This document shows positions 5,528 to 19,135 of a DNA stretch of 20,527 bases, one piece after another. Below the pieces are notes generated by a model, which was not told where the DNA came from, did no database searches, and was given only the letters and a program-made list of their open reading frames with translations. Source of the stretch: a virus; the IMG/VR virus record IMGVR_UViG_3300043823_000253, positions 1 to 20,527 of that record; one strand, 5' to 3'. Every line of letters starts with the position of its first letter. Position 1 is the first letter of the stretch. The position numbers and the translations under genes were made by a program.

Positions 5528-5742
5528 TAAAGCATATTAAAAAAGCTTTGTCATTATTTTCTAAGAAAAAAGAAGAGATTGATCCTGCTTCTGCAAAAGA
5601 ATGGCCTTTCCCTGTAGGGCACGAGCCACAATTGGTAGCAAAAAAGAAGCCTGCTTTAAAGAAAGCTACAACTCGTAAGAAAGTTGTTGCCAAAAAAGCT
5701 ACAACTGTTGCTAAAAAGAAAACAAAGGCTAAATCTAAATGA
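5524..5742 (+). CDS. Small protein with histone H1-like Lys/Ala tail
   Basis: 72 residues. The first half (about 1-38) contains IKKALSLFSKKKEEIDPASA and a short hydrophobic patch EWPFPVGHEPQLV. The second half (about 39-72) is almost only Lys, Ala, Thr and Val (KKATTRKKVVAKKATTVAKK), resembling histone H1-type tails. Such a tail would bind DNA or RNA non-specifically. Start (ATGA overlap with the previous stop) and stop (ATGA overlap with the adaptor gene) are both coupled. It could condense DNA near the portal or act early on host nucleic acid; neither is shown by the sequence. Confidence 0.65.
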   Translation: MIKHIKKALSLFSKKKEEIDPASAKEWPFPVGHEPQLVAKKKPALKKATTRKKVVAKKATTVAKKKTKAKSK

Positions 5743-6686
5743 CTACATCAGCCACAACCCTGTTCAATTTGGACATGAATGAGCTTATTGAAGAAGCATT
5801 CGAGCGTTGTGGTTCGCAGTTACGTACTGGCTATGATTTCCGCACAGCTCGTCGTAGCGTCAATATGATGACCATTGAATGGGCCAATAAGGGCATTAAT
5901 CTTTGGACAGTTGAGCAGGGACAGATTCCAATTAATATCAATGCTGGTCAAATTAGCTATCCTATTCCAGTTGATACTATTGATTTGTATGACCATGTAA
6001 TCCGTCAAGGCACAGGCCAAAATCAGCAAGATATTAACATCACCCGCATCTCTGGCGATACATACCTCACAATCCCTACTAAAAACGCCTATGGGCGTCC
6101 TATTCAAGTTTGGATAGATAGACAGTCAGGAAACGTTGATTCACTTCCTACGACCACTTTATCACAAGCTGCTGGAGCCTCTGATACCACATTATATGTG
6201 ACATCTACTCAGAATCTTCGCACCCAAGGATATATTAATATTGATGGAGAGACCATTCTTTATCAAAACGTTGGAACTGTAAATGGCAGCAATGCTAATC
6301 AGTTGTTAAATTGCTTCCGTGCTCAGAATGGAACAACTGCTACAGCTCACGCAGCTGGTGCAAGTATTTATAATAACTTCTTGCCAAATATTAACATTTG
6401 GCCTACTGGTAATCCCGGAACACAATATACATTTGTTTATTGGCGTATGCGCCGTGTACAAGATGCAGGCACAGGTATTACTACTGAAGATATCCCATTC
6501 CGATTTATTCCAGCAATGGCTGCAGGATTAGCATATTACCTTAGCATAAAGATTCTTGGTGTTGATCCAACTAGAATTGCTGGATTAAAGTCGATGTACG
6601 ATGAAGCGTTTCAATTAGCGGCTGAAGAGGATAGAGAGAAAGCCGCTTTACGAATAGTTCCACGTAATATGTTTTATTATAGATAG
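5739..6686 (+). CDS. Head-tail adaptor-like protein (first), with inserted beta domain
   Basis: 315 residues. The N-terminal part (about 11-60) is helical, LIEEAFERCG then RTGYDFRTARRSVNMMTIEW, and the C-terminal part (about 230-300) has FVYWRMRRVQDAGT, DIPFRFIPAMAAGLAYYLSI and LAAEEDREKA. This arrangement is the one I associate with P22 gp4/tail-tubular-A-like head-tail adaptor proteins, which close the portal and connect it to the tail. Residues about 136-213 look like a separate beta domain inserted between RPIQVWIDR and INIWPT: it has TLYVTST, GYINIDGETILYQ, FRAQNGTTATAHAAGA, a module I recall from other phage structural proteins. No ribosome binding site is obvious; the ATGA overlap with the preceding gene suggests coupling. 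Adaptor role is inferred from recalled similarity and position. Confidence 0.72.
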   Translation: MTTSATTLFNLDMNELIEEAFERCGSQLRTGYDFRTARRSVNMMTIEWANKGINLWTVEQGQIPININAGQISYPIPVDTIDLYDHVIRQGTGQNQQDINITRISGDTYLTIPTKNAYGRPIQVWIDRQSGNVDSLPTTTLSQAAGASDTTLYVTSTQNLRTQGYINIDGETILYQNVGTVNGSNANQLLNCFRAQNGTTATAHAAGASIYNNFLPNINIWPTGNPGTQYTFVYWRMRRVQDAGTGITTEDIPFRFIPAMAAGLAYYLSIKILGVDPTRIAGLKSMYDEAFQLAAEEDREKAALRIVPRNMFYYR

Positions 6687-6688
6687 TC

Positions 6689-7117
6689 ATGCCGAATAAG
6701 TTCGCTTCTGGTAAGCACTCGATAGCCGAATGTGACCGGTGTGGTCAAAGGTATAAGTTAGCTGAATTACGCATACAAACGTTAAAGACAAAGCCTTATA
6801 AGGTAAAAGTATGCAAAGCTTGTTGGGATCCGGATCATCCACAGTTACAGCTTGGTATGTATCCAGTTTCCGATCCGCAGGGTGTTCGGGAGCCTCGCCC
6901 TGACGTTAGTTATTATGCGTCTGGATCTACAGGTTTATATGTAAATCCGAATGCTAGCAATAGTGTAAACAATGCTGGGTATCCTAGCGATGGTAGTAGG
7001 CAGTTCCAGTGGTCTTGGAATCCAGTAGGTGGAGCAAGTTACTTTGACAGATATTTAACGCCAAACAGCTTGGTTCTGGTAATAACAATCGGTAATGTTA
7101 CAATAGTAACAACTTAA
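6689..7117 (+). CDS. Zinc-ribbon-like virion-region protein
   Basis: 142 residues. C15-x2-C18 (ECDRCGQRYKL) and C42-x2-C45 (VKVCKACWD) form a four-cysteine knuckle pair of the kind that binds one zinc ion. They are followed by DPDHPQLQLGMYPVSDPQ and a Pro-Arg-rich stretch. The rest is Ser/Asn/Gly-rich and ends in an alternating beta strand (LVLVITIGNVTIVTT). I recall the MPNKFASGKxxIAECDRCGxRYKL opening from uncharacterised proteins between adaptor genes in many phages, so it is probably a conserved connector component. A DNA-binding role is also possible. It starts two bases after the previous stop. Confidence 0.68.
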   Translation: MPNKFASGKHSIAECDRCGQRYKLAELRIQTLKTKPYKVKVCKACWDPDHPQLQLGMYPVSDPQGVREPRPDVSYYASGSTGLYVNPNASNSVNNAGYPSDGSRQFQWSWNPVGGASYFDRYLTPNSLVLVITIGNVTIVTT

Positions 7118-7128
7118 GGAGCATTAAA

Positions 7129-7314
7129 ATGGGATACAAAAGCGGTGCTGACGGCATCAATAAAAAGGGTAAAACCAAAGGTAAAAACTACGGCGATACT
7201 GGTCCAACAGTTGGTATCGAAGGCGGTGCTGGTAAAAAAGGCGCCCGTACTGTTACTAATGAGAACCTAAGAAAATATGGTCGTAATTTAGCTCGTGCTA
7301 AAAATCAGGAGTAA
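7129..7314 (+). CDS. Small basic Gly/Lys-rich protein (61 residues)
   Basis: Preceded by a strong ribosome binding site, AAGGAG at 7116-7121. It begins MGYKSGADGINKKGKTKGKN, has a Gly-rich middle (VGIEGGAGKKGARTVTNENL) and ends RKYGRNLARAKNQE, a short amphipathic basic helix. No membrane segment or enzymatic motif is seen. It continues the small basic protein theme of 4222-5742 on the other side of the first adaptor. Function unknown; I recall the KYGRNxAxxxNQ ending from other phages. Confidence 0.62.
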   Translation: MGYKSGADGINKKGKTKGKNYGDTGPTVGIEGGAGKKGARTVTNENLRKYGRNLARAKNQE

Positions 7315-7316
7315 TC

Positions 7317-7613
7317 ATGGCTATTAAACCAACTAAAAAGAACAGTTCACCAATGGTAACTGGAAAAGCTAAGCCAAAAGCAGCTGAGTCTACCGATAAA
7401 AAAGGTACTGGCGTAGCAGCAGAGCGTAAGGCTACTGGTCATTATGCAACAGATCCAAATACTATGAAGGCAGATGAGCTAACTCCGGGTGGAATGCCTG
7501 CTATGACTGTATCTATTGGCAACAAAACTCGTGAGCCAAAGACTTCTGGCATCGAAACTCGTGGTAACGGCGCAGCTACTAAAGGCCGTATTGCACGTGG
7601 CCCTATGGCTTAA
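7317..7613 (+). CDS. Small basic protein (98 residues)
   Basis: Starts two bases after the previous stop, with AGGAG just upstream. It begins MAIKPTKKNSSPMVTGKAKP and ends TRGNGAATKGRIARGPMA. The middle has KADELTPGGMPAMTVSIGNK and REPKTSGIETRG. It is Lys, Thr, Gly and Ala-rich, lacks hydrophobic segments and is probably disordered. I recall the NKTREPKTxGIxTRGxGAATKGxxxRGPMA tail as conserved in uncharacterised phage proteins immediately upstream of the second adaptor gene. Function unknown. Confidence 0.62.
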   Translation: MAIKPTKKNSSPMVTGKAKPKAAESTDKKGTGVAAERKATGHYATDPNTMKADELTPGGMPAMTVSIGNKTREPKTSGIETRGNGAATKGRIARGPMA

Positions 7614-7622
7614 GGATAGCTT

Positions 7623-8552
7623 ATGGGTATGAATTACGAGACAATGTACAACACTATTCAGTCTTACGCTGAGAATACTGAACAGTTGTTTGTGGCTAAT
7701 ATCCCTGTATTCATACAGGAAGCCGAGTCTCGTATTTACAACTCTGTTAATTTGCCATCTTTACGTAAAAATGTAACGGGTACTTTAACCACAAATAATC
7801 CATACGTAGCATTGCCAGATGACTGGCTTGCCAATTATTCATTGGCGGTTATTGATTCTTTAGGAAACTATAAGTATTTGTTAAATAAGGATGTAAACTT
7901 CATTCGTGAAGCATATCCTAACCAGTCTGTCACTGGAAAGCCTTATTGCTATTCATTATTTGGATCACAGTTAAATAACGCCAATGAAATGACACTCATG
8001 CTTGGGCCTACTCCTGACCAAGACTACACTGTTGAAATGCACTATTTCTACTATCCTCCTACGATAGTTCAAGGTCAGATTTCTATTTTAAGCAATATTG
8101 TTGCAGGATCGCTATATACCAATGGTGTATACCAAAACGTAGATTTAACTGGTGGATCTGGATCTGGAGCAACTGCAGATATCGTAGTTGTGGGTGGTGG
8201 CGTGGTTTCATGTACCCTTACATTTGGCGGAAATTTCTATATTAGCGGTGATATTCTTTCTTGCGCAGACCTAGGAAATACTGGATCTGGCTTTTCTATT
8301 ACAGTAGATGTGATATCAAATGCTGCTGGAACTAGCTGGCTTGGTGATAATTATGACCCCGTATTGTTTTATGGAGCAATGCGGGAAGCCATGCTCTTTA
8401 TGAAGCAAGAGCAAGATTTGGTATCCTATTACGAACAAAAGTATCAAGAAGCATTGGCTGAGCTTAAACGTCTTGGAGATGGTATGGAGCGTGGAGACGC
8501 ATACCGAGATGGGCAAACAAAGCTCAACGTTAATTTAAAGGGTAATGCATGA
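7623..8552 (+). CDS. Head-tail adaptor-like protein (second), with inserted Gly-rich beta domain
   Basis: 309 residues. The N-terminus (about 4-100) has NYETMYNTIQSYAENT, IPVFIQEAESRIYN, LPSLRKNVTG and LLNKDVNFIREAYP. The C-terminus (about 235-300) has GTSWLGDNYDPVLFYGAMRE and a helical EQKYQEALAELKRLGDG. This layout matches phage head-tail connector/adaptor proteins as I recall them. Residues about 150-232 form a distinct insert rich in Gly, Ser and Val (LYTNGVYQNVDLTGGSGSGA, VVGGGVVSCTLTFGG, GNTGSGFSITVDV), a repeat-type beta module I recall from other virion proteins. AAGGA at 7612-7616 favours ATG 7623 over ATG 7629. TGA overlaps the next ATG. Confidence 0.7.
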   Translation: MGMNYETMYNTIQSYAENTEQLFVANIPVFIQEAESRIYNSVNLPSLRKNVTGTLTTNNPYVALPDDWLANYSLAVIDSLGNYKYLLNKDVNFIREAYPNQSVTGKPYCYSLFGSQLNNANEMTLMLGPTPDQDYTVEMHYFYYPPTIVQGQISILSNIVAGSLYTNGVYQNVDLTGGSGSGATADIVVVGGGVVSCTLTFGGNFYISGDILSCADLGNTGSGFSITVDVISNAAGTSWLGDNYDPVLFYGAMREAMLFMKQEQDLVSYYEQKYQEALAELKRLGDGMERGDAYRDGQTKLNVNLKGNA

Positions 8553-9004
8553 TAGTTCAGGGGTCTACCACGACGTTTATGCAAAATCTCCTGAATGGTA
8601 ATGAGAACTTTACCACTGGGGATTACTATATTGCCTTATATAACGGAAACGCCAATCTAGATAATACAACTACAGCTTACACATCTACAAATGAGGTAAC
8701 TGGTACTGGATATACGGCTGGCGGTCAGCCTTTGACTATTAGCGTATCCCCAACAGTAGACAATACCTATAACCTAGCATATATCTCCTTTGCAAATGCA
8801 ATTTGGAGTCCCGCAGCCTTTACGTGTAGGGGTGCTTTGGTCTACAATTACACTACTAAAGCATCCTGTTTTGTGCTAAATTTTGGGTCAGACAAGACCT
8901 GCAATAGTAGTTTTACCGTGCAGTTCCCGGCAGCGACAAGTACGTCTGCTATTTTATCAATTGGTAGCTATACAAGTGCTACCGTAGTTAGTTCTGGAGA
9001 TTAA
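8549..9004 (+). CDS. Small beta-rich structural protein
   Basis: 151 residues starting by an ATGA overlap with the adaptor gene. It contains GSTTTFMQNLLNGNENFTTG, YYIALYNGNANLDNTTTAY, TNEVTGTGYTAGGQPLTI and a C-terminal beta region with FVLNFGSDKTCNSSFTVQFP. I recall the TTFxxxLLNGxxNFTT...YKIALYTGxAxL pattern from uncharacterised phage structural proteins that sit just upstream of fibres. No catalytic motif, signal or membrane segment. Likely a tail or fibre-base component; function otherwise unknown. Confidence 0.65.
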   Translation: MIVQGSTTTFMQNLLNGNENFTTGDYYIALYNGNANLDNTTTAYTSTNEVTGTGYTAGGQPLTISVSPTVDNTYNLAYISFANAIWSPAAFTCRGALVYNYTTKASCFVLNFGSDKTCNSSFTVQFPAATSTSAILSIGSYTSATVVSSGD

Positions 9005-9006
9005 TT

Positions 9007-9618
9007 ATGCAAAAAGAATTTGCAAGTTGTGGTGACAAGGCAGAAATTAGTCTGCAAGCTGGCGCTGCACAAAACGAAATGGTTGGTATCGAAGGTCAAT
9101 ATGTAGTTGAGTGCCGTGATGCCGATGGTAATTTAAAATGGTCTGATAGCTTTCCTAACCTAGTTAACGCTCTTGGTAAGCAGTTAATGCTAAATACATT
9201 GTTGCGTACTTCTGGTACATACACAACTACAGGTCCATTCCTTGGCTTGATTGCTACAACTAGCCCTACATTTAACGTAGAAGATTCGATGACTAGCCAC
9301 TCTGGTTGGACTGAATTTACTGCATATACAGTAAGCAGCTCAGCAGTTCGTGGTACAGCAGTATTTGCTACAGCAACCGATAATGCAGTTGCATCCCCAT
9401 CAAACGTGGTGACCTCTGCAGCTAGTTCTATTACTTATGCAATCGTTGCTCCCGGCGGAAACGTAACTGGATGCTTCTTGACTACTGGTTCTGGTGCATC
9501 TTCTACTATTAGTAATACTGGTGGAACATTGTATAGCGCAGGCGCATTCGGTACAGCTAAAGCGGTATCTGCTGGAGACACTGTTTCGGTTTCTTACAGT
9601 ACCACCGCCACTTCTTAA
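9007..9618 (+). CDS. Probable tail-associated structural protein
   Basis: 203 residues with GGAGA (8996-9000) ahead of ATG. After a polar N-terminus, VECRDADGNLKWSDSFPNLV leads into NALGKQLMLNTLLRTSGTYT, then FLGLIATTSPTF and GWTEFTAYTVSSSAVRG. The C-terminal half is a Ser/Thr/Ala/Val beta-rich region ending SAGDTVSVSYSTTATS. I recall the VGKQLxLDTxL...WxMGLI...GWTExxxY...F layout as common in uncharacterised phage virion proteins. The position between two structural genes and the fibre supports a tail role. Confidence 0.65.
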   Translation: MQKEFASCGDKAEISLQAGAAQNEMVGIEGQYVVECRDADGNLKWSDSFPNLVNALGKQLMLNTLLRTSGTYTTTGPFLGLIATTSPTFNVEDSMTSHSGWTEFTAYTVSSSAVRGTAVFATATDNAVASPSNVVTSAASSITYAIVAPGGNVTGCFLTTGSGASSTISNTGGTLYSAGAFGTAKAVSAGDTVSVSYSTTATS

Positions 9619-10890: not shown

Positions 10891-11295
10891 ATGGCAAATC
10901 CAAACATTGCAGCACTAAATAATATTTATGGCAACACTGCCTATGTGGTTCCGTCTACTACTAGCGCAACAACTAGCTGGACTTATAACGGTTCTACATC
11001 GTTAACTGGCTTAACGCCTGCTACTAATACCGTTAATAAGATTACGGGATTGATCGTATCTAATACAACATCCTCTGCGGCATATGCAACTGTCGGTGTA
11101 GGTAACAATGCAACATTCGGCTCTGCTACTGTGATTGGTTACTTGGCTTATAACATCTCTGTACCAGCAAATGCGTCCTTGATTATTGTTGATAAGACTA
11201 CTGACCTGTACATTACTGAGAACCAATCCGTTGGTGTGACATCTGGTACAGCCAGTGCGCTGACTTTTACAGCCGTTTTTGAAGCAATATCATAA
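10891..11295 (+). CDS. Small structural protein, tail/fibre region
   Basis: 134 residues with AAAGGA at 10878-10883. It begins MANPNIAALNNIYGNTAYVV and is a string of hydrophobic beta-like segments: VNKITGLIVSNTTSSAAYAT, VIGYLAYNISVPANASLIIV and LYITENQSVGVTSGTASALT. This layout (short N-terminus, KI..L...N....A.vtv, P...slivid.....yltEgqsi.v.a) is one I recall from phage virion proteins of unknown function that accompany fibres. No signal or membrane segment. It lies six bases before the first RCC1 propeller gene. Confidence 0.66.
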   Translation: MANPNIAALNNIYGNTAYVVPSTTSATTSWTYNGSTSLTGLTPATNTVNKITGLIVSNTTSSAAYATVGVGNNATFGSATVIGYLAYNISVPANASLIIVDKTTDLYITENQSVGVTSGTASALTFTAVFEAIS

Positions 11296-11301
11296 TCTAG
11301 C

Positions 11302-12429
11302 ATGAGCGAGCGTTATGTTGGTGCATGGATGACCGATGGCGGATTTAATCCGCTAGTTGCGCCTACGCCTACAACTTTATACAACTTATACGGTTGGGGA
11401 TTAAATGGTTATGGTCAATTGGGTCTCGGAAACGTAGGATACTACTCATCTCCAAAACAAGTAGGTTCTTTAACGAATTGGTCAGTTATTTCAGTAGGAA
11501 GAGCTTCAAGTGTAGCAATTAAAACCGATGGAACTTTGTGGACTTGGGGATTAAATAATAGTGGTCAATTAGGGTTAGGAAATACAACTTATTACTCATC
11601 TCCAAAACAAGTAGGATCTCTTACTAATTGGTCAACAGTATCTATAGGAAATTCTACTTGCATTGCAATCAAAACGGATGGAACCCTTTGGTCTTGGGGG
11701 ACAGGAAGCAGTGGTGAAACTGGACAAGGAAACCAAACAAATCTATCTAGTCCTAAACAAATTGGCTCTTTAACAACTTGGATTTCAATATTTACTGGAC
11801 AAGGTTTTTCATTTGCTATTCAAAATAATGGTACTCTATGGTCTTGGGGATATAACGGTATTGGAAACTTAGGAGTTGGAAATACAAATTCTTACTCCTC
11901 TCCTAAACAAGTAGGCTCATTAACTAATTGGCTTAGATTATCTGCAGGAGATTATCAAGCAATTGCTATTAAAACAGATGGCACTCTATGGTCTTGGGGA
12001 GAAAATAATTATGGTCAATTAGGACTTGGAAATACAACAAGTATATCTTCACCAAAACAAGTAGGAAATTTGACAACTTGGTCAAAATCATTTAATGCTT
12101 TTCTATCAACTGCAGCAATAAAGACAGACGGTACTTTATGGACTTGGGGTCAAGGTACTAATGGTCAACTTGGCCTAGGGAACACAACAAATTACTCATC
12201 CCCAAAACAAGTAGGAGTTTTAACGAACTGGTCTTCAAAAGGTGCTGGAGGATTGCGCAATTATGCGATTATTAAAACTGATGGTACTTTGTGGTCTTGG
12301 GGATATAATTTTTACGGACAGCTTGGATTAGGAAACACAAACTATTACTCATCACCTAAACAAGTAGGAAGTTTAACTAGTTGGTTAAATATTGCTGGGG
12401 CATACTACTCTATGTTAGCAATAGGATAA
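11302..12429 (+). CDS. RCC1-type seven-bladed beta-propeller, type A, copy 1
   Basis: 375 residues. A 28-residue leader (MSERYVGAWMTDGGFNPLVA then PTPTTLYN) precedes seven consecutive RCC1 repeats of about 50 residues. Each repeat has L(W/Y)(S/T/G)WG, then G(Q/N/E)xG, SSPKQ(V/I)G, (N/T/S)W and (K)TDGT. Repeat 6 is one residue longer (RNYAIIKTDGT). Seven is the number needed to close an RCC1 propeller. In other proteins this fold binds proteins, as in RCC1 itself and BLIP-II. In a phage fibre region the likely role is receptor or surface binding, with the short leader as a virion anchor; this is inference. No good ribosome binding site is seen. The next gene starts one base after its stop. Confidence 0.85.
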   Translation: MSERYVGAWMTDGGFNPLVAPTPTTLYNLYGWGLNGYGQLGLGNVGYYSSPKQVGSLTNWSVISVGRASSVAIKTDGTLWTWGLNNSGQLGLGNTTYYSSPKQVGSLTNWSTVSIGNSTCIAIKTDGTLWSWGTGSSGETGQGNQTNLSSPKQIGSLTTWISIFTGQGFSFAIQNNGTLWSWGYNGIGNLGVGNTNSYSSPKQVGSLTNWLRLSAGDYQAIAIKTDGTLWSWGENNYGQLGLGNTTSISSPKQVGNLTTWSKSFNAFLSTAAIKTDGTLWTWGQGTNGQLGLGNTTNYSSPKQVGVLTNWSSKGAGGLRNYAIIKTDGTLWSWGYNFYGQLGLGNTNYYSSPKQVGSLTSWLNIAGAYYSMLAIG

Positions 12430-13585
12430 TATGGCAACTACAGTCTACCCATACATCCAATACGGCGGAATCTGGACTACAAGCCAAGCTACTGATGCTA
12501 TTGCAGCGGGGACGTGGGCTACGCCGCCACAGCCACATTTGTTTAGCTGGGGAAATAATACCCAAGGGCAGCTTGGATTAGGGAATATAACTCAATATTC
12601 ATCCCCTAAACAAGTAGGATCATTAACGAATTGGTTAAAAATATCTACTTTTTATACTTCTATATCAGCTATTAAAACCGATGGTACTCTTTGGTCATGG
12701 GGAGATAATTATTATGGTCAATTAGGCCTTGGTAATTTAACCTATTACTCATCCCCAAAACAAGTTGGGTCACTAACTAATTGGTCGCAAATAAGTGTTG
12801 GAAATTATAGTGCATTAGCCATTAAAATTGACGGCTCTCTGTGGTCTTGGGGCAAAAATAATTTTGGAACATTAGGTCTTAATAATACAACCTATTATTC
12901 ATCACCAAAACAAGTAGGCTCATCAACTAATTGGGCAAAAATTAATTGTGGATCCCATTATTCGTTTGCTATTAAAACTGACGGTACTCTATGGTCATGG
13001 GGACTTAATAGTAATGGTCAGCTTGGCCTTGGAAATACAACATATTATTCTTCACCTAAACAAGTTGGCTCTCTTGCTAATTGGGCAAATATATCCGGTT
13101 TTGGCAATGGAGTCGCAGCAATCAAAACCGATGGAACTCTGTGGACTTGGGGTTGGAATAGTTACGGTCAATTAGGATTAGGAAATGTAACACCTTATTC
13201 CTCGCCAAAACAAGTAGGTAGCCTTACTAATTGGGCAACCCTAGGAAAAGGCAGCACTCAGAATGTTGCAGCTATAAAAACTGATGGCACATTATGGACA
13301 TGGGGAAGGAATAACGATGGTGCTTTAGGACTTGGTAATACAACTAATTATTCCTCACCCAAACAAGTAGGGAGCCTTACAAATTGGTTTTCTACCAGTG
13401 GAGGAAACTTTTTTACTTGTGCAACTAAAACAGATGGTACCCTATGGTCATGGGGAAGTAATGCTTATGGTAATTTAGGCATTGGAAATATGACATACTA
13501 CTCATCTCCAAAACAAGTCGGCTCTTTAACCACTTGGCTACAAATTACTGGTGGTTCTTACAACATAACCGCAATAGCAAAATTT
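11386..13585 (+). repeat. Fourteen ~150-bp RCC1 coding repeats, cassette 1
   Basis: Two arrays of seven units (11386-12426 and 12539-13585), period about 150 bases, separated by the stop, one base and the leader of the second gene. Units match strongly as protein, but the DNA coding the common SSPKQVGSLTNW segment differs at silent positions (for example Ser as TCT, TCA, TCC or AGT, and Val-Gly as GTAGGT, GTTGGC, GTCGGC). Confidence 0.85.
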
Positions 13586-13588
13586 TAA
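12431..13588 (+). CDS. RCC1-type seven-bladed beta-propeller, type B, copy 1
   Basis: 385 residues. A 36-residue leader (MATTVYPYIQYGGIWTTSQA, then AGTWATPPQPH) is unrelated to the type A leader and leads straight into seven RCC1 repeats (from LFSWGNNTQGQLGLGN to LWSWGSNAYGNLGIGN). Repeat 5 is one residue longer. The invariant SSPKQVGS core is the same as in type A, while the x residues between WSWG and GQLG, and the loop after the NW pair, vary. The GGIWxxxxAxxAxxxxTW leader looks like a virion-attachment peptide. It probably acts with the type A protein encoded one base upstream as a pair. The 3' end runs into an inverted repeat that includes the stop codon. Confidence 0.85.
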   Translation: MATTVYPYIQYGGIWTTSQATDAIAAGTWATPPQPHLFSWGNNTQGQLGLGNITQYSSPKQVGSLTNWLKISTFYTSISAIKTDGTLWSWGDNYYGQLGLGNLTYYSSPKQVGSLTNWSQISVGNYSALAIKIDGSLWSWGKNNFGTLGLNNTTYYSSPKQVGSSTNWAKINCGSHYSFAIKTDGTLWSWGLNSNGQLGLGNTTYYSSPKQVGSLANWANISGFGNGVAAIKTDGTLWTWGWNSYGQLGLGNVTPYSSPKQVGSLTNWATLGKGSTQNVAAIKTDGTLWTWGRNNDGALGLGNTTNYSSPKQVGSLTNWFSTSGGNFFTCATKTDGTLWSWGSNAYGNLGIGNMTYYSSPKQVGSLTTWLQITGGSYNITAIAKF

Positions 13589-13620
13589 CTATGATAAACT
13601 TTACACTCATTTCATAGTTA
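13586..13620 (+). repeat. Perfect 9-bp inverted repeat before the sulfotransferase gene
   Basis: TAACTATGA (13586-13594) and TCATAGTTA (13612-13620) are perfect inverted copies around a 17-base centre. The left arm includes the stop codon of the RCC1 gene, and the right arm ends one base before AGAGG, the ribosome binding site of the next gene. A TATGAT (13590-13595) overlaps the left arm and could be a -10 box, but no -35 partner is visible. The element might be an operator, an mRNA hairpin that separates expression of the two genes, or a trace of insertion. The stem is AT-rich and has no T-run after it. Confidence 0.6.
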
Positions 13621-13630
13621 AGAGGAAAAC

Positions 13631-15403
13631 ATGAAGAAAACCCTACACTTCTTGAGCGGTATCCCACGCAGTGGAAGCACTGTTTTGGCTGCTATTTTGA
13701 ACCAAAACCCGATGACGCACGTCTCTACTACTAGCGGTCTAGTACATGCACTTGACGGACTGGCGAACACGTGGCATTCCGCTGGACTGCTCAACGAGAA
13801 CGACCCAGACCGCAAGAAACTAGCGCAGACTATGCGTGGCATGATTGACGCATTCTACGAAGATACTGATAAGCCTGTAGTAATTGATAAAGGACGTGGC
13901 TGGCCTATTCCCATCATTATGGGCGCTATGACTCAGGTTCTCGGACACAAGCCGAAGATTATCGCTACAGTACGCCCCGTGCCTGACTGCATGGCATCCT
14001 TTGTGCGTGTTGCCAAGCCTGAGAACTTGGATGAGTTTATGTACTCTGGTCAGCTTGCCGACCATCTAAAGGCAGCCTATATTTCCCTTCAGGAAGGCTA
14101 TAACGCCATGCCTGAGTGCTTCTTATTCGTGGAGTATGACAACCTACTCTCAAACCCAAAAGCCGAACTAGAGCGCATCCATGCCTTCCTAGAGCTACCA
14201 CCGTTTGAGTACGACCTATCTAACATTGACGGCACTCCAGTTAAGGAAGATGACGAGAACTTGCACGGTTATGCTGGCATGCACGACATCAAGCCAGAGT
14301 TAAAGAAACAACACAATGACCGCTCACAAGACCTACTCAAGCACCATTACAACCAGTTCTGCCAGCCAGAGTTCTGGAACGACAACGCCCGTACTATCCC
14401 TGAGTTAGATGACCTAGACTTACAGGTCGCTGCAGGTAGAATGGGTGACTTTGTAGAAGGCTGGAGACTATCTGAGAAGCTGAACTCCGAACGTCCACAA
14501 GACCACCGTGCAGCGTATAACCGTTCTTGGTATCTCTTAAAGCAGGGTAAGATTGGTGAAGGCTATACCCAAATGAACCGTGGACGTTTCTGCGGAATCA
14601 TTGGTGAGCGTCACCCAGATACCCCGATGCCAGAGTGGGACGGCAAGACTAAAGGCACAGTGCTGTTGTATTTAGACCACGGCTTGGGAGATCAGATTCA
14701 CCAAGTACGCTACGCTAAAGACTTAGTTGCCCGTGGTTGCCGTGTAGTGGTCTGCTGCACTGGCATGTTAGCAAGCCTATTTAAGGATGTAGAAGGCGTT
14801 GATGCCGTTATCCAGCATGGCGCTGAGTATGGCGTTTACCACGACTTTTGGACGTTCGGTATGGTGATGCCCTACTACCTTGGATACGAGATGTCTGACA
14901 TTAAAGGCACACCGTACATTGCTAAACCAGCTACCATTAAAGGACGCAAGAAGCGCATTGGTCTGCGCTGGCAGGGTCAGTCTAAGTTTGAAGATGACCA
15001 CAACAAGCGTTTTCCGTATGAGTTGATGTTTAATGCCGTACAGGGCGCTGACTATGAGTTTATTTCATTACAGCGTGACGAAGGCGCAGATGCTTGCCCA
15101 CCATGGGTTAAGCGTGTACCATTAGACTCTTGGGATCAGACCAAAGAAGCTATTGCAAGTTGCGACCTCGTAATCTCAAGTTGCACATCTGTATCCCACT
15201 TAGCAGCCGCTATGGGTGTAGAGACTTGGGTAGTAATCCCTGTGATGGGCTACTATTTATATTCTCTAGATGGTGATAAGACTCCGTACTATGACTCAAT
15301 GACACTATTCCGTCAGGAAGTCTTTGGAGACTGGGAAGCACCGTTTAATAAGATTAAAGACCGATTAACCGCAGAAAAGCCGCAGATACGAATGGTGAGT
15401 TAA
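13631..15403 (+). CDS. Sulfotransferase fused to a C-terminal GT9-like domain
   Basis: 590 residues. The N-terminal domain (about 1-230) has the PAPS-binding signatures of sulfotransferases: LSGIPRSGSTVLAAIL (5'-phosphosulfate loop, residues 8-23) and ATVRPVPDCMASF (112-124), giving the R-x7-S pair R115/S123 that holds the 3'-phosphate. A TPR-like linker (about 265-320) leads to a GT9-like domain: YLDHGLGDQIHQVRYAKDL (347-365), IGLRWQGQSK (443-452) and CDLVISSCTSVSHLAAAMG (511-529). It would move sulfate from PAPS to a hydroxyl, perhaps on a glycan handled by the second domain. It lies between the two RCC1 cassettes, and a CysC-like kinase follows 3.3 kb later. Its base composition is clearly richer in G and C than the RCC1 genes. 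AGAGG at 13621-13625 supports the start. Confidence 0.8.
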   Translation: MKKTLHFLSGIPRSGSTVLAAILNQNPMTHVSTTSGLVHALDGLANTWHSAGLLNENDPDRKKLAQTMRGMIDAFYEDTDKPVVIDKGRGWPIPIIMGAMTQVLGHKPKIIATVRPVPDCMASFVRVAKPENLDEFMYSGQLADHLKAAYISLQEGYNAMPECFLFVEYDNLLSNPKAELERIHAFLELPPFEYDLSNIDGTPVKEDDENLHGYAGMHDIKPELKKQHNDRSQDLLKHHYNQFCQPEFWNDNARTIPELDDLDLQVAAGRMGDFVEGWRLSEKLNSERPQDHRAAYNRSWYLLKQGKIGEGYTQMNRGRFCGIIGERHPDTPMPEWDGKTKGTVLLYLDHGLGDQIHQVRYAKDLVARGCRVVVCCTGMLASLFKDVEGVDAVIQHGAEYGVYHDFWTFGMVMPYYLGYEMSDIKGTPYIAKPATIKGRKKRIGLRWQGQSKFEDDHNKRFPYELMFNAVQGADYEFISLQRDEGADACPPWVKRVPLDSWDQTKEAIASCDLVISSCTSVSHLAAAMGVETWVVIPVMGYYLYSLDGDKTPYYDSMTLFRQEVFGDWEAPFNKIKDRLTAEKPQIRMVS

Positions 15404-16527
15404 TGAGTTATAGGTATTCCAATTCCTTTGTTGATCCGGGGTTAAATACCTTGGTTAGTCCTGCTCCTCAGTATACATATAACTTGTATAGCTGGGGAAA
15501 TAATGGTAATGGTCAATTAGGATTAAATAACACAACATCCTATTCTTCTCCTAAACAAGTAGGCAGTTTAACGAATTGGTCAAAATTAGGCGCTGGATTT
15601 TATCATAATACAGCTATTAAAACTGACGGCACCTTATGGTCTTGGGGAAATAATGGTAATGGTCAATTAGGTCTTGGAAATGTAACTCTATATTCATCCC
15701 CAAAGCAGGTTGGAAGTTTAACAAATTGGTCTACAGTTTCTTGTGGTGCTTATTTTTCCACAGCCATTAAAACCGATGGTACATTATGGGCTTGGGGATT
15801 TAATAACAATGGACAATTAGGATTTGGTAATACAACAATGTATTCTTCTCCTAAGCAAGTTGGATCTCTTACAACTTGGTTAAAAATATCATGCGGATAT
15901 TATAATATATGTGCTATTAAAACAGATGGAACTATTTGGTCTTGGGGTCGTAACAATCTTGGACAATTGGGTATTGGAAATACAACCGATTATTCTTCAC
16001 CAAAACAAGTCGGATCTTTAACTAATTGGTTATCTATTTCTTGCGGAACTTATTTTGCTACTTCTATCAAAACTGATGGAACGTTATGGACTTGGGGATA
16101 TAATGCTTACGGAGAATTATGTCAAGGAAACACAACTACATTATCATCTCCAAAGCAAGTAGGTGCGCTAACAAATTGGTTAAAAAGTTCTGGAGGAAGA
16201 TTTATTTCATCTGCTATCAAAACTGACGGCACTCTCTGGACTTGTGGAAATAACAATGCTGGTCAATTAGGCATTGGAAATGTCACTAAATATTCATCTC
16301 CAAAACAAGTCGGCTCTTTAACTAATTGGTCTTTAATTTCACTTGGTGGTCAAGCCTCTACTGCAATTATGTCAAACGGTACGTTATGGACTTGGGGTAC
16401 TGGAGGTTATGGGCAACTTGGATTAGGAAATGTAACCAATTATTCATCACCAAAACAAGTCGGATCACTCACCAGCTGGATAAATATTGCAGCAGGTCAA
16501 TATGACGTTTTAGCATTAGCCTACTAA
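15403..16527 (+). CDS. RCC1-type seven-bladed beta-propeller, type A, copy 2
   Basis: 374 residues starting on the sulfotransferase stop codon (TAATG). The leader MSYRYSNSFVDPGLNTLVSP then APQYTYN aligns by eye with the type A leader of copy 1 (MSxRY, a Gly, NxLVxPxP, YNLYxWG). Seven RCC1 repeats follow, from LYSWGNNGNGQLGLNN to LWTWGTGGYGQLGLGN. Repeat 5 has an unusual GELCQGN and repeat 6 has LWTCGNNN, where Cys replaces the strongly conserved Trp of the WG pair. Several repeats carry SCGxY in the strand after NW, a feature less common in copy 1. Likely a receptor-binding or surface-binding propeller. It pairs with the next gene, which starts one base after its stop. Confidence 0.85.
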   Translation: MSYRYSNSFVDPGLNTLVSPAPQYTYNLYSWGNNGNGQLGLNNTTSYSSPKQVGSLTNWSKLGAGFYHNTAIKTDGTLWSWGNNGNGQLGLGNVTLYSSPKQVGSLTNWSTVSCGAYFSTAIKTDGTLWAWGFNNNGQLGFGNTTMYSSPKQVGSLTTWLKISCGYYNICAIKTDGTIWSWGRNNLGQLGIGNTTDYSSPKQVGSLTNWLSISCGTYFATSIKTDGTLWTWGYNAYGELCQGNTTTLSSPKQVGALTNWLKSSGGRFISSAIKTDGTLWTCGNNNAGQLGIGNVTKYSSPKQVGSLTNWSLISLGGQASTAIMSNGTLWTWGTGGYGQLGLGNVTNYSSPKQVGSLTSWINIAAGQYDVLALAY

Positions 16528-17683
16528 TATGCCAATAACATACCCCTACACCCAATACGGAGGCATCTGGAAGCTCAACGCAGCAAGCGCAGCTCAAGGG
16601 GCTAGCACTTGGCCTACGCCGCCAGCACCGCATTTGCTTAGCTGGGGTGATAATAATGCTGGTCAATTAGGATTAAATAACACAACATATTACTCATCCC
16701 CCAAACAAGTTGGCAGTTTAACGAATTGGTTAAAACTATCCCAAGGACAGGGAATGTCTGCCGCAATTAAAACTGACGGTACATTATGGTCATGGGGTTT
16801 TAATTCTAACGGTCAATTAGGCTTAGGTAACACAACATATTACTCATCACCAAAACAAGTTGGCTCCCTTACGAATTGGGCTACTATATCGTGCGGGTTC
16901 AGGCATATGGCATCTATTAAAACAGATGGCTCATTATGGACTTGGGGTAATAATGGTTATGGAAATTTAGGATTGGGCAATGTAACATATTATTCATCCC
17001 CTAAACAGGTCGGATCTCTTACCAATTGGTCATCTGTATCTTGTGGATATGCATACACTGTAGCACTTAAAACAGACGGTACTCTTTGGTCTTGGGGACG
17101 TAACGCTTTTGGTCAACTTGGATTAGGAAATGTCACTAATTATTCATCCCCTAAACAAGTTGGAAGCCTTACGACTTGGCTATCAATTGTAGCTGGATAT
17201 GCTTCTGTATTCCCCACCAAAACAGATGGTACTTTGTGGGCTTGGGGTTTTAATACTTACGGTGTGCTTGGATTAAATAGTGTAGTACATTATTCTTCCC
17301 CAAAACAAGTTGGATCTTTAACCAATTGGCTAAATATAGCATGTGGATATTATACAACTATTGCATCTACTACAGCCCATACATTATGGTCGTGGGGATT
17401 AAATAATTATGGTCAATTAGGTTTAGGAAACAGAACACAATATTCCTCCCCAAAACAGATTGGAGTTTTAACTAATTGGTTGATCCCTTATGAACATTCC
17501 TCTACGACATTTGTCATTAAAACAGACGGAACACTTTGGGCTTGGGGTGCTGGAGGTGAGGGTCAACTTGGATTTGGAAATACTACATATTACTCATCAC
17601 CAAAACAAGTAGGATCATTAACAACTTGGACTTCTGTATCAACAGGATCTAGTGGACAGCAAACTTTAGCAATAGCAACAGTT
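15484..17683 (+). repeat. Fourteen ~150-bp RCC1 coding repeats, cassette 2
   Basis: Two arrays of seven units (15484-16524 and 16634-17683), same period and gene order as cassette 1. With cassette 1 this gives 28 coding repeats in 6.4 kb. The arrays should be prone to recombination and to assembly error from short reads. Confidence 0.85.
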
Positions 17684-17686
17684 TAA
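16529..17686 (+). CDS. RCC1-type seven-bladed beta-propeller, type B, copy 2
   Basis: 385 residues, the same length as type B copy 1. Its leader MPITYPYTQYGGIWKLNAAS, ending TWPTPPAPHLLSWG, clearly corresponds to the type B leader (YPYxQYGGIW...TWxTPPxPHLxSWG). Seven RCC1 repeats follow. In repeat 5 the usual IKTDGT is replaced by STTAHT and the GLGN by GLNS, and repeat 4 has FPTKTDGT, so blades 4-6 have drifted most. As in copy 1, the gene begins one base after the type A stop (TAAT ATG). Role as for the other propellers: probable virion-attached binding protein. BLIP-II-like protein binding is a known use of this fold, but nothing here shows the ligand. Confidence 0.85.
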   Translation: MPITYPYTQYGGIWKLNAASAAQGASTWPTPPAPHLLSWGDNNAGQLGLNNTTYYSSPKQVGSLTNWLKLSQGQGMSAAIKTDGTLWSWGFNSNGQLGLGNTTYYSSPKQVGSLTNWATISCGFRHMASIKTDGSLWTWGNNGYGNLGLGNVTYYSSPKQVGSLTNWSSVSCGYAYTVALKTDGTLWSWGRNAFGQLGLGNVTNYSSPKQVGSLTTWLSIVAGYASVFPTKTDGTLWAWGFNTYGVLGLNSVVHYSSPKQVGSLTNWLNIACGYYTTIASTTAHTLWSWGLNNYGQLGLGNRTQYSSPKQIGVLTNWLIPYEHSSTTFVIKTDGTLWAWGAGGEGQLGFGNTTYYSSPKQVGSLTTWTSVSTGSSGQQTLAIATV

Positions 17687-17706: not shown

Positions 17707-18162
17707 ATGTCATTATATGTACGAGTAGTAAACAATCAAGTAGTCGACTGCTGGGACACACCTCCCGCTGAAGGTGTTGGTAATAACGGCTGGATGAATG
17801 CGGTAGAAAACCGTCCATCTATCGTTGCAAATCGTCAAGGCTACACAGCCCACACATTTGATCTCACCACAGATCCAGTAGGTATCAACTATGGTACTTT
17901 TAATATTGCTGTAGCTGATCGTGCTGCTGGGATGACGGCTAACGCTAACTTTGCAGTATCACAAATGCTTCACCAAATGGCACGTGATCCGTCCACTTTT
18001 GATGCAACTAAAGTAGCTGCTGAACAAGCCTCTGCTGCCGCTCAAATTTCTGCAATCGCCGCCGCTACAACGCACAACCAATTGGACGCTATCCAAAACG
18101 GCACAGCAACAACAGTTGCAGAAGTTCAAGCAATTACAACTCCTGATCCAGTACTGAGCTAA
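17707..18162 (+). CDS. Small tail-associated protein with Ala-rich helical C-terminus
   Basis: 151 residues with a strong AAAGGAG (17693-17699). The N-terminus MSLYVRVVNNQVVDCWDTPP followed by GVGNNGWMNAVENRPSI resembles, from memory, short proteins that accompany phage tail fibres and may act as fibre-assembly or attachment factors. The C-terminal third is helical and rich in Ala, Gln and Thr (VAAEQASAAAQISAIAAATT). No enzymatic motif, signal or membrane segment. It follows the last RCC1 gene and its TAA overlaps the methyltransferase ATG (TAATG). A chaperone role is a guess. Confidence 0.6.
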   Translation: MSLYVRVVNNQVVDCWDTPPAEGVGNNGWMNAVENRPSIVANRQGYTAHTFDLTTDPVGINYGTFNIAVADRAAGMTANANFAVSQMLHQMARDPSTFDATKVAAEQASAAAQISAIAAATTHNQLDAIQNGTATTVAEVQAITTPDPVLS

Positions 18163-18710
18163 TGAAACTGAATCTTGGTTGCGGATATAACAAGTATGAT
18201 GGTTACGTAAATGTAGACCATGATGCTAACTGCAGCCCAGATATTGTTGCCGATCTGGAATCCAATCTTCCATTTGAAGATAACTCGGTAGATGAGGTCA
18301 TTATGTTCCACGTCTTAGAACACCTAGGACAGGACGTGAGCACCTACTTTTCTATCTGGAAAGAGCTGTATCGTATCTGCAAGGATCAGGCCGAGATTAA
18401 GATCACAGTGCCACATTGGAACCATGAGAACTTTCACCACGATCCTACGCACGTCCGCAAGGTGACTCCCGTTGGCGTGAATATGTTCAGCCAGAAGAAG
18501 AACCGAGAGACTATCGCAGAAGGCGGTCAGGAAACCACATTAGGGTTACAACTAGGCATAGATATTGAGGTAGTGGGTGTACACTATGACTTATCGCCTT
18601 GGTTTCAGCAAGCTATGCAGGGTCAACCTAAAGAAGTAGTAGAGCGGGAAATTGGGCGATATAACAATAGTTGCTATCAAATTCACATCTACGCAAAGGT
18701 AATAAAATGA
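18162..18710 (+). CDS. SAM-dependent class I methyltransferase
   Basis: 182 residues. Motif I is LNLGCGYNKYDGYVNVD (3-19), the Gly-rich SAM loop with the acidic end of strand 2 at D19. The following DIVADLESNLPFEDNSVDEV (27-46) and MFHVLEHL (48-55) are the methyltransferase-11-type post-motif elements. It would move a methyl group from SAM to an unknown acceptor. Proteins of this small type are frequent in glycan and surface-polysaccharide loci, so a sugar or lipid-linked acceptor is plausible here, next to glycosyl- and sulfotransferase genes. DNA methylation is unlikely because no target-recognition domain or DPPY-type motif is seen. The gene overlaps the genes on both sides (TAATG at its start, ATGA at its end) and is richer in G and C than the RCC1 genes. 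Confidence 0.8.
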   Translation: MKLNLGCGYNKYDGYVNVDHDANCSPDIVADLESNLPFEDNSVDEVIMFHVLEHLGQDVSTYFSIWKELYRICKDQAEIKITVPHWNHENFHHDPTHVRKVTPVGVNMFSQKKNRETIAEGGQETTLGLQLGIDIEVVGVHYDLSPWFQQAMQGQPKEVVEREIGRYNNSCYQIHIYAKVIK

Positions 18711-19135
18711 AGATTCTCATAATGGGACTGCCCGGCTCAGGTAAAACAACACTTGCTCAAGCATTGTGCAAAAAGATCCATGCCGTACATTTAAACGCAG
18801 ATATTATGCGTAATCGGGTATGGACAGACTTGGATTTTTCCCCATCTTGCCGTATGATACAAGCACAGCGTATGGGCGCATTATCGGACGTTTTAAACGA
18901 GCAAGGTCTTGATACTATTGCAGATTTTGTTTGCCCGACAGATTTTACTCGTGAGCTATTTGGCGATGCCTATGTGGTATGGGTAGATAGAATTAAAGAA
19001 GGCCGCTTTGAAGATACCAACAGAATGTTCGAGGCCCCAAGGAAGTATGACTTGCGTATCCCAAATGGGTTAACAATAGAACAGGAAGTAGAAAAGATTC
19101 TCAAGGGAATCTCTAAACTTAAGAAAGCCGCATAA
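18707..19135 (+). CDS. CysC-like (APS kinase family) P-loop kinase, short form
   Basis: 142 residues from ATG 18707, with AAGG at 18696-18699; an upstream in-frame start at 18671 is rejected because it lies inside the methyltransferase gene. Walker A is GLPGSGKTTLA (7-17). LNADIMR (29-35) replaces the LDGDxxR of adenylylsulfate kinase, DLDFSPSCR (41-49) matches DLGFSxxDR, ADFVCPTDFTRELF (72-85) matches the ISP..R segment, and FEDTNRMFEAPRKYDLRI fits the C-terminal block. APS kinase phosphorylates adenosine-5'-phosphosulfate to PAPS, the donor used by sulfotransferases. The protein is shorter than bacterial CysC (about 200 residues), lacking most of the mobile lid, and two residues of the DGD motif differ, so the substrate is not certain. 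Another small kinase activity is the main alternative. Confidence 0.72.
   Translation: MKILIMGLPGSGKTTLAQALCKKIHAVHLNADIMRNRVWTDLDFSPSCRMIQAQRMGALSDVLNEQGLDTIADFVCPTDFTRELFGDAYVVWVDRIKEGRFEDTNRMFEAPRKYDLRIPNGLTIEQEVEKILKGISKLKKAA

Follow-up and report, generated by a model that had tools for sequence, protein, structure and literature searches.

The virus record IMGVR_UViG_3300043823_000253, analysed over its entire 20,527 bases (the window) and probably a genome fragment, carries four genes for RCC1-repeat propeller proteins, which stand as two A-B pairs on either side of a gene for a fused enzyme. All five genes lie on the + strand in the order A (11302..12429; 375 amino acids, aa), B (12431..13588; 385 aa), enzyme (13631..15403; 590 aa), A' (15403..16527; 374 aa) and B' (16529..17686; 385 aa); a single base separates stop codon and ATG within both A-B pairs, and the A' start codon begins on the final base of the enzyme's stop. 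Searching with PF00415 revealed exactly seven RCC1 matches in each protein (E 1e-68 to 1e-79; 3e-68 for A, 2e-75 for B, 3e-79 for A' and 1e-75 for B'), and gene A also matched phrog_4219 (E 1.6e-65). Altogether 28 matches exceed the family cut-off without an internal stop, a pattern that, judged from the DNA, excludes a chance origin, and the repeats of all four proteins carry the conserved blade motif of RCC1/BLIP-II propellers. Each protein opens with a short leader, of one type in A and A' and of another in B and B'. The coordinates, repeat counts, lengths, one-base junctions and leader types given in an original prediction from the same DNA all hold.

The propeller bodies proved far more diverged than that prediction, which called them near-identical, had assumed: pairwise they share 57–64% protein identity and 63–67% DNA identity, and A and A' (64%) are hardly closer than A and B (62%) or B and A' (63%). 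When single blades were compared, same-index blades were no closer than different-index blades, and no pairing of A with A' or B with B' bodies was found. The proposed duplication and retention of an A-B unit therefore stands only in part: the unit is present twice and its order recurs in relatives, as described below, but leaders and synteny alone show it, the bodies keeping no trace. Blades of the window have a framework synonymous divergence (dS) of 1.48 and nonsynonymous divergence (dN) of 0.13. Since synonymous sites are saturated, these blades are not young copies, and because they have diverged so far the framework must be held by selection on the protein.

These values bear directly on whether the genes reflect ordinary recent blade amplification, that is, young duplicate repeats without adaptive variation. 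Continual blade amplification is known (PMC9218822), and in two related loci (L118 and L139; genes A, B and A') blades within a gene are 81–88% identical in DNA against a norm of ~62%, which suggests that they were recently amplified or homogenised by gene conversion. The high identity expected of a recently amplified propeller was seen in few relatives such as these and was absent from the window, where blades average 0.62–0.67 (62–67%) in DNA; together with the framework dS this refutes recent amplification for the window, and we regard that explanation as very improbable.

We used AlphaFold2 to predict the structure of A', the one protein folded (52 sequences). The model, with a mean predicted local distance difference test (pLDDT) score of 93.3, contains 28 strands, or seven times four, and closes as a seven-bladed propeller, in line with the earlier expectation, the first strand (residues 26–32) coming from the N-terminal part. 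Its nearest solved fold is UVR8 (template modelling score, TM, 0.86), with the RCC1-like domains of RPGR and HERC also among the neighbours. Comparing ~2,000 blades of 300 distinct proteins revealed a marked asymmetry: firstly, columns W4, G27, P45, Q47 and G49 are nearly invariant; secondly, the most variable columns (6, 9, 11–15, 28, 30, 31 and 41) map, by the strand positions of the A' model, to the hairpins s1-s2 and s3-s4, both of which lie on one side of the four-stranded meander; thirdly, mean entropy is 2.05 at these loops versus 0.84 at the conserved s2-s3 and s4-s1 loops (p 0.004). Of all columns, 11 and 28 vary most; in an alignment with UVR8 they fall on the tryptophans of CGW and WGW, which form the UVR8 dimer interface. 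Tyrosine is abundant on the variable face. Related alleles have a dN/dS of 0.12 in the framework and 0.64 at variable positions, suggesting that the latter are relaxed or diversified, at a ratio below 1.

To place the arrangement in context, we gathered related loci (given L numbers here) by three scans with the middle enzyme, obtaining 143 non-redundant loci. RCC1 genes adjoining the enzyme almost always have seven blades, and 31 of the 143 loci have exactly 7+7 blades on each side of it; contig ends cut many others, and some carry one RCC1 gene 3' of the enzyme. Given this recurrence, the order in the window cannot be put down to a chimera or to faulty assembly, a concern raised with the original prediction. 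Identical alleles also occur in separate contigs (L087/L088/L127; L069–L072), so the alleles are stable and not assembly noise. Elsewhere, in L046, one open frame of 7,195 aa runs through the contig and off both its ends; its 46 blade matches mark a giant protein of RCC1 repeats.

Near-clonal phages differ sharply in their propellers. In L109 and L120, the 1,200 bp upstream are 98–100% identical, the leaders mostly 96–100% and the enzyme 98.2%, whereas genes A and B are 62–65% identical in DNA; synonymous divergence is 0.07 for the enzyme and ~1.9–2.0 for the bodies. The same pattern of kept flanks and different bodies was found in L076/L077, L012/L119, L075/L123 and L085/L091, and over the initial ~18 codons of A such near-clonal pairs mostly retain 70–90% DNA identity before identity falls to the background level. 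These phages thus show a constant N-terminus followed by a variable distal part. Over 1,451 comparisons body identity is near-bimodal, at ~1.0 or ~0.63 with few intermediates, at most levels of backbone identity. Conversely, identical or nearly identical bodies occur on diverged backbones (L192/L153, where the A body is 100% identical despite an enzyme at 94%; L164/L182; L176/L173), behind different leaders (L153/L154, where the B' body is 98.8% identical with the enzyme at 91% and the leader at 87%) and in different slots (L143 A' with L149 A, 90%; L073 B' with L103 A'), which shows that bodies are exchanged. Partial mosaics between alleles at the level of blades were looked for and none was found.

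A mutator aimed at the bodies, for instance a diversity-generating retroelement, could also diversify them in place, and the restriction of variation to certain columns while the framework stays fixed would suit it. Such a mutator would not, however, saturate synonymous framework sites as well, nor place identical alleles in separate contigs and on different backbones; the changes are thus not limited to chosen codons, as they would be in a retroelement target. No PF00078 reverse transcriptase was found in 14 related virus records (33–67 kb, possibly fragments). We consider diversification in place barely credible.

The leaders behave as separable units. Leader A comprises residues 1–26 (11302..11379), the constant part of gene A, and by analogy with the A' model would precede the first propeller strand; its counterpart in A' spans 15403-15477. 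Leader B (12431..12535; 16529-16630 in B') has the form YPYxQYGGIW...TW. A pattern search in other phages, one of the checks proposed earlier, found leader B mostly in front of RCC1 bodies, but also before a LamG body and before glycine-rich VEYLVVAGGGG bodies; in L074 (9946-10695) a LamG lectin body behind leader B (PF13385, E 8e-11) takes the B' slot of L063, another fold replacing the RCC1 head. Leader B is therefore a modular anchor, shared with other recognition domains as in phage receptor-binding proteins. The two leader types had been taken to mean two attachment points on the virion, a view weakened by 31 genes in relatives that carry A-type and B-type leaders in tandem on one propeller; because the two are fused in this way, they suggest docking at neighbouring sites. 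A candidate dock lies directly 5' of A, where the + strand encodes a small beta-rich protein of 134 aa (10891..11295). In all 79 related loci whose sequence reaches far enough upstream, a homologue stands immediately 5' of A (identity 34–100%), and in the closest relatives it is 79–91% identical versus 56–68% for the propellers.

Cultured phages offer several parallels. In the four Pseudomonas protegens Pf-5 phages SeaP1-4, from one garden, the N-terminal part of the tail fibre is mostly 90–100% identical and the flanks 97–98%, whereas the RCC1 heads are of two types about 50–60% identical in DNA; these fibres match the T7 fibre N-domain weakly (E 7e-5 to 1e-4, just below the Pfam cut-off). 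T7-type fibres with RCC1 heads (SeaP1-4, PollyC, Littlefix) thus resemble the window's proteins in their constant anchor and, in SeaP1-4, in a head replaced between near-identical phages, but they carry the head on a full-length fibre of ~860–900 aa instead of a leader of 25–35 residues, and SeaP1-4 have one RCC1 gene per genome. Asteriusvirus and other jumbo coliphages (121Q, PBECO4, Sharanji, phAPEC6; GAP32) possess tandem RCC1-like genes of ~370–400 aa, most of which share a short unchanging leader, MLPFARMVKYGNIAP, in front of differing bodies; the order and content of the arrays differ among close relatives, and several of the proteins were detected in virions by mass spectrometry (PMC7247149, PMC5259590). 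In Asteriusvirus (L310, L311, L312) most genes in the array are introduced by a near-identical ~105-bp segment of upstream region and leader, through which recombination could reshuffle the heads, and bodies are either shared between relatives at 90–99% or absent. Unlike the window, these arrays have about 10–13 genes, one leader type in most copies, weaker RCC1 repeats, and no annotated sulfotransferase or glycosyltransferase, and the published guess at their role is DNA ordering. Strong differences at two 'chromosome condensation' genes were likewise reported between fEgEco12 and Ecwhy_1 (PMC13070987). Cyanophage S-SRM01 has three RCC1 genes downstream of the gene for its distal long tail fibre, and genes for a TPR protein, a sulfotransferase and a glycosyltransferase are scattered among them; Marine virus AG-345-E08 holds a similar mixture. 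The paper describing S-SRM01 is silent on these RCC1 genes. The original prediction knew of no described phage system with so many blades, which is mistaken: 121Q, PBECO4 and phAPEC6 carry 10–13 RCC1 genes each, with 11–13 in 121Q and phAPEC6, and S-SRM01 carries three. RCC1 proteins have been found by mass spectrometry in virions of coliphages W70 (PMC11370258) and phAPEC6 (PMC7247149) and, as cited in PMC5259590, of GAP32.

Current annotations assign phage RCC1 proteins to chromosome condensation or DNA metabolism. The authors of the phAPEC6 study, who noted that no information exists on RCC1 protein function in prokaryotes, suggested that they order DNA, arguing from the binding of eukaryotic RCC1 to nucleosomes (PMC7247149). 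PHROGs files phrog_4219, phrog_7220 and phrog_16766 under 'DNA, RNA and nucleotide metabolism'. That the propellers order DNA inside the capsid, as the placing of phrog_4219 under DNA metabolism would imply, is extremely unlikely: wholesale replacement of bodies between near-clonal phages and one-sided variability are unlike a conserved DNA-packing task, the same leader also fronts LamG and glycine-rich bodies, and RCC1 heads sit on T7-type tail fibres. These observations suggest instead that the three PHROGs belong with tail or host-recognition proteins.

We consider it likely that the four proteins are hypervariable virion-borne adhesins, most likely receptor-binding proteins, whose alleles are swapped by recombination; the receptor-binding (adhesin) role put forward at the outset remains the best reading of the locus. 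A short constant leader, of A or B type, would dock each protein to the virion, with the tail-fibre region as the probable place, and the seven-bladed propeller would serve as an exchangeable head. Its framework is under strong purifying selection, and ~11 sites vary in each blade (at most some 300 in the 28 blades), mostly on one face that would form the binding surface. Diversity would arise by recombination, which draws whole bodies from a large stock of old alleles and leaves leader and neighbours in place, and in some lineages new alleles may also come from amplification of one blade. The comparisons establish the constant leader with a replaced body, the one-sided variability, the modularity of the leader, the exchange of alleles and the co-occurrence of enzyme and RCC1, on a predicted propeller fold; that the proteins of the window's phage sit in its virion and bind a receptor is inferred.

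A related possibility is that the propellers are surface decorations or binders of a non-receptor target, mediating attachment to particles or mucus or inhibiting a host enzyme as BLIP-II does. Both the versatility of RCC1 propellers in binding proteins (RCC1/BLIP-II group, PMC9218822) and their many copies per coliphage would fit; yet the genes lie beside tail genes, the S-SRM01 copies adjoin a long tail fibre gene, RCC1 heads are fused to T7-type fibres, and swapping of alleles at the strain level is typical of host-recognition genes (metaviromic islands, PMC3909814). We therefore judge this alternative unlikely.

Between the cassettes, a fused enzyme is kept in relatives. Its residues ~1–200 form a sulfotransferase (PF13469, E 2.6e-14), as first described, whereas the C-terminal half, which that description lacked, resembles a GT-B-type glycosyltransferase. 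Tyrosylprotein sulfotransferases are among the solved structures nearest to the N-terminal half by profile and fold; the resemblances of the C-terminal half are to SPY, O-GlcNAc transferase, TibC and GT9 enzymes. Several of these look-alikes (tyrosylprotein sulfotransferases, SPY, O-GlcNAc transferase, TibC, the GT9 group) modify proteins. A sulfotransferase- or glycosyltransferase-like gene lies within 3 kb of RCC1 in 27 of 42 RCC1-anchored loci versus 0 of 14 leader-B glycine-rich loci, a comparison between different phage lineages and loci of unequal length. We infer that the enzyme probably modifies the propellers. A P-loop kinase resembling adenylylsulfate (APS) kinase, encoded further downstream on the + strand (18707..19135; PF01583, E 2.4e-10, above its cut-off), might conceivably supply the sulfate donor PAPS to the sulfotransferase; it scores far below the NCBIfam apsK cut-offs, and related kinases lie downstream in L010, L021 and L035.

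Several points weigh against the adhesin interpretation: firstly, for the window's phage it rests on sequence and a predicted fold; secondly, the coliphage RCC1 proteins detected in virions are distant in sequence from those of the window; thirdly, the variable face was assigned from strand order in the model rather than from measured coordinates; fourthly, dN/dS above 1, as ongoing positive selection at single sites would give, was not found at pooled variable sites (0.64), although nonsynonymous exceed synonymous differences (pN above pS) at variable sites in one pair, L040/L036. To these may be added the modest quality of the enzyme model (pLDDT 77, predicted TM 0.53) and the unlike lineages and locus lengths behind the enzyme comparison.

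A constant anchor with a variable recognition head is a known kind of system. In the metaviromic islands and tail-fibre tips of marine phages (PMC3909814), near-identical phages likewise differ at host-recognition genes with a conserved N-terminus and a variable distal part; there the heads are C1q, lectin or fibre tips, with RCC1 and propellers unmentioned in that paper, whereas the window has four parallel heads, a fixed fold and saturated synonymous divergence. The HNWD (het-d, het-e) sensors of Podospora (PMC12222747) similarly combine propeller repeats and a conserved framework with few hypervariable recognition sites, but they are WD40 fungal immune receptors with concerted evolution and varying repeat number, unlike the fixed seven blades and whole-body exchange seen here. 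Our searches of the open-access literature turned up no earlier description of RCC1 as the scaffold, of the swapping of whole bodies at four loci or of recurrence in unrelated phages. Two apparent matches proved irrelevant: a 2026 paper on hypervariable regions uses 'RCC1' for strain numbers of the Roscoff Culture Collection, and a paper on RcGTA receptor binding matched through gene tags. More tentatively, RCC1 propellers might be a general phage recognition scaffold resembling an antigen-receptor repertoire, with seven fixed blades, ~11 variable positions on the face of each blade, multiple heads on one virion, alleles exchanged whole behind a constant leader and a dedicated sulfotransferase/glycosyltransferase decorating the tyrosine-rich face, an idea that we hold to be rather doubtful.

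The pattern of constant leader and swapped head in three unrelated phage groups, cultured ones included, makes the question of RCC1 function directly testable, and it predicts that the unexplained RCC1 array of jumbo phages is an adhesin repertoire. It would also offer a stable scaffold of natural origin whose binding face exists in very many variants, and perhaps an example of a phage modifying its own virion proteins by sulfation or glycosylation.

Overall, the window reads as a phage tail region. It opens with a fragment of a major head protein (3-461) and encodes virion structural proteins at 5739-9618. Between the head-protein fragment and the + strand tail genes, the - strand (509-2825) carries two genes, one of them for a TPR protein that includes a GT9-like glycosyltransferase domain; together they may form a module modifying virion or host glycans. 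At the other end, 3' of B', a methyltransferase gene accompanies that of the APS-kinase-like P-loop protein (18162-19135).

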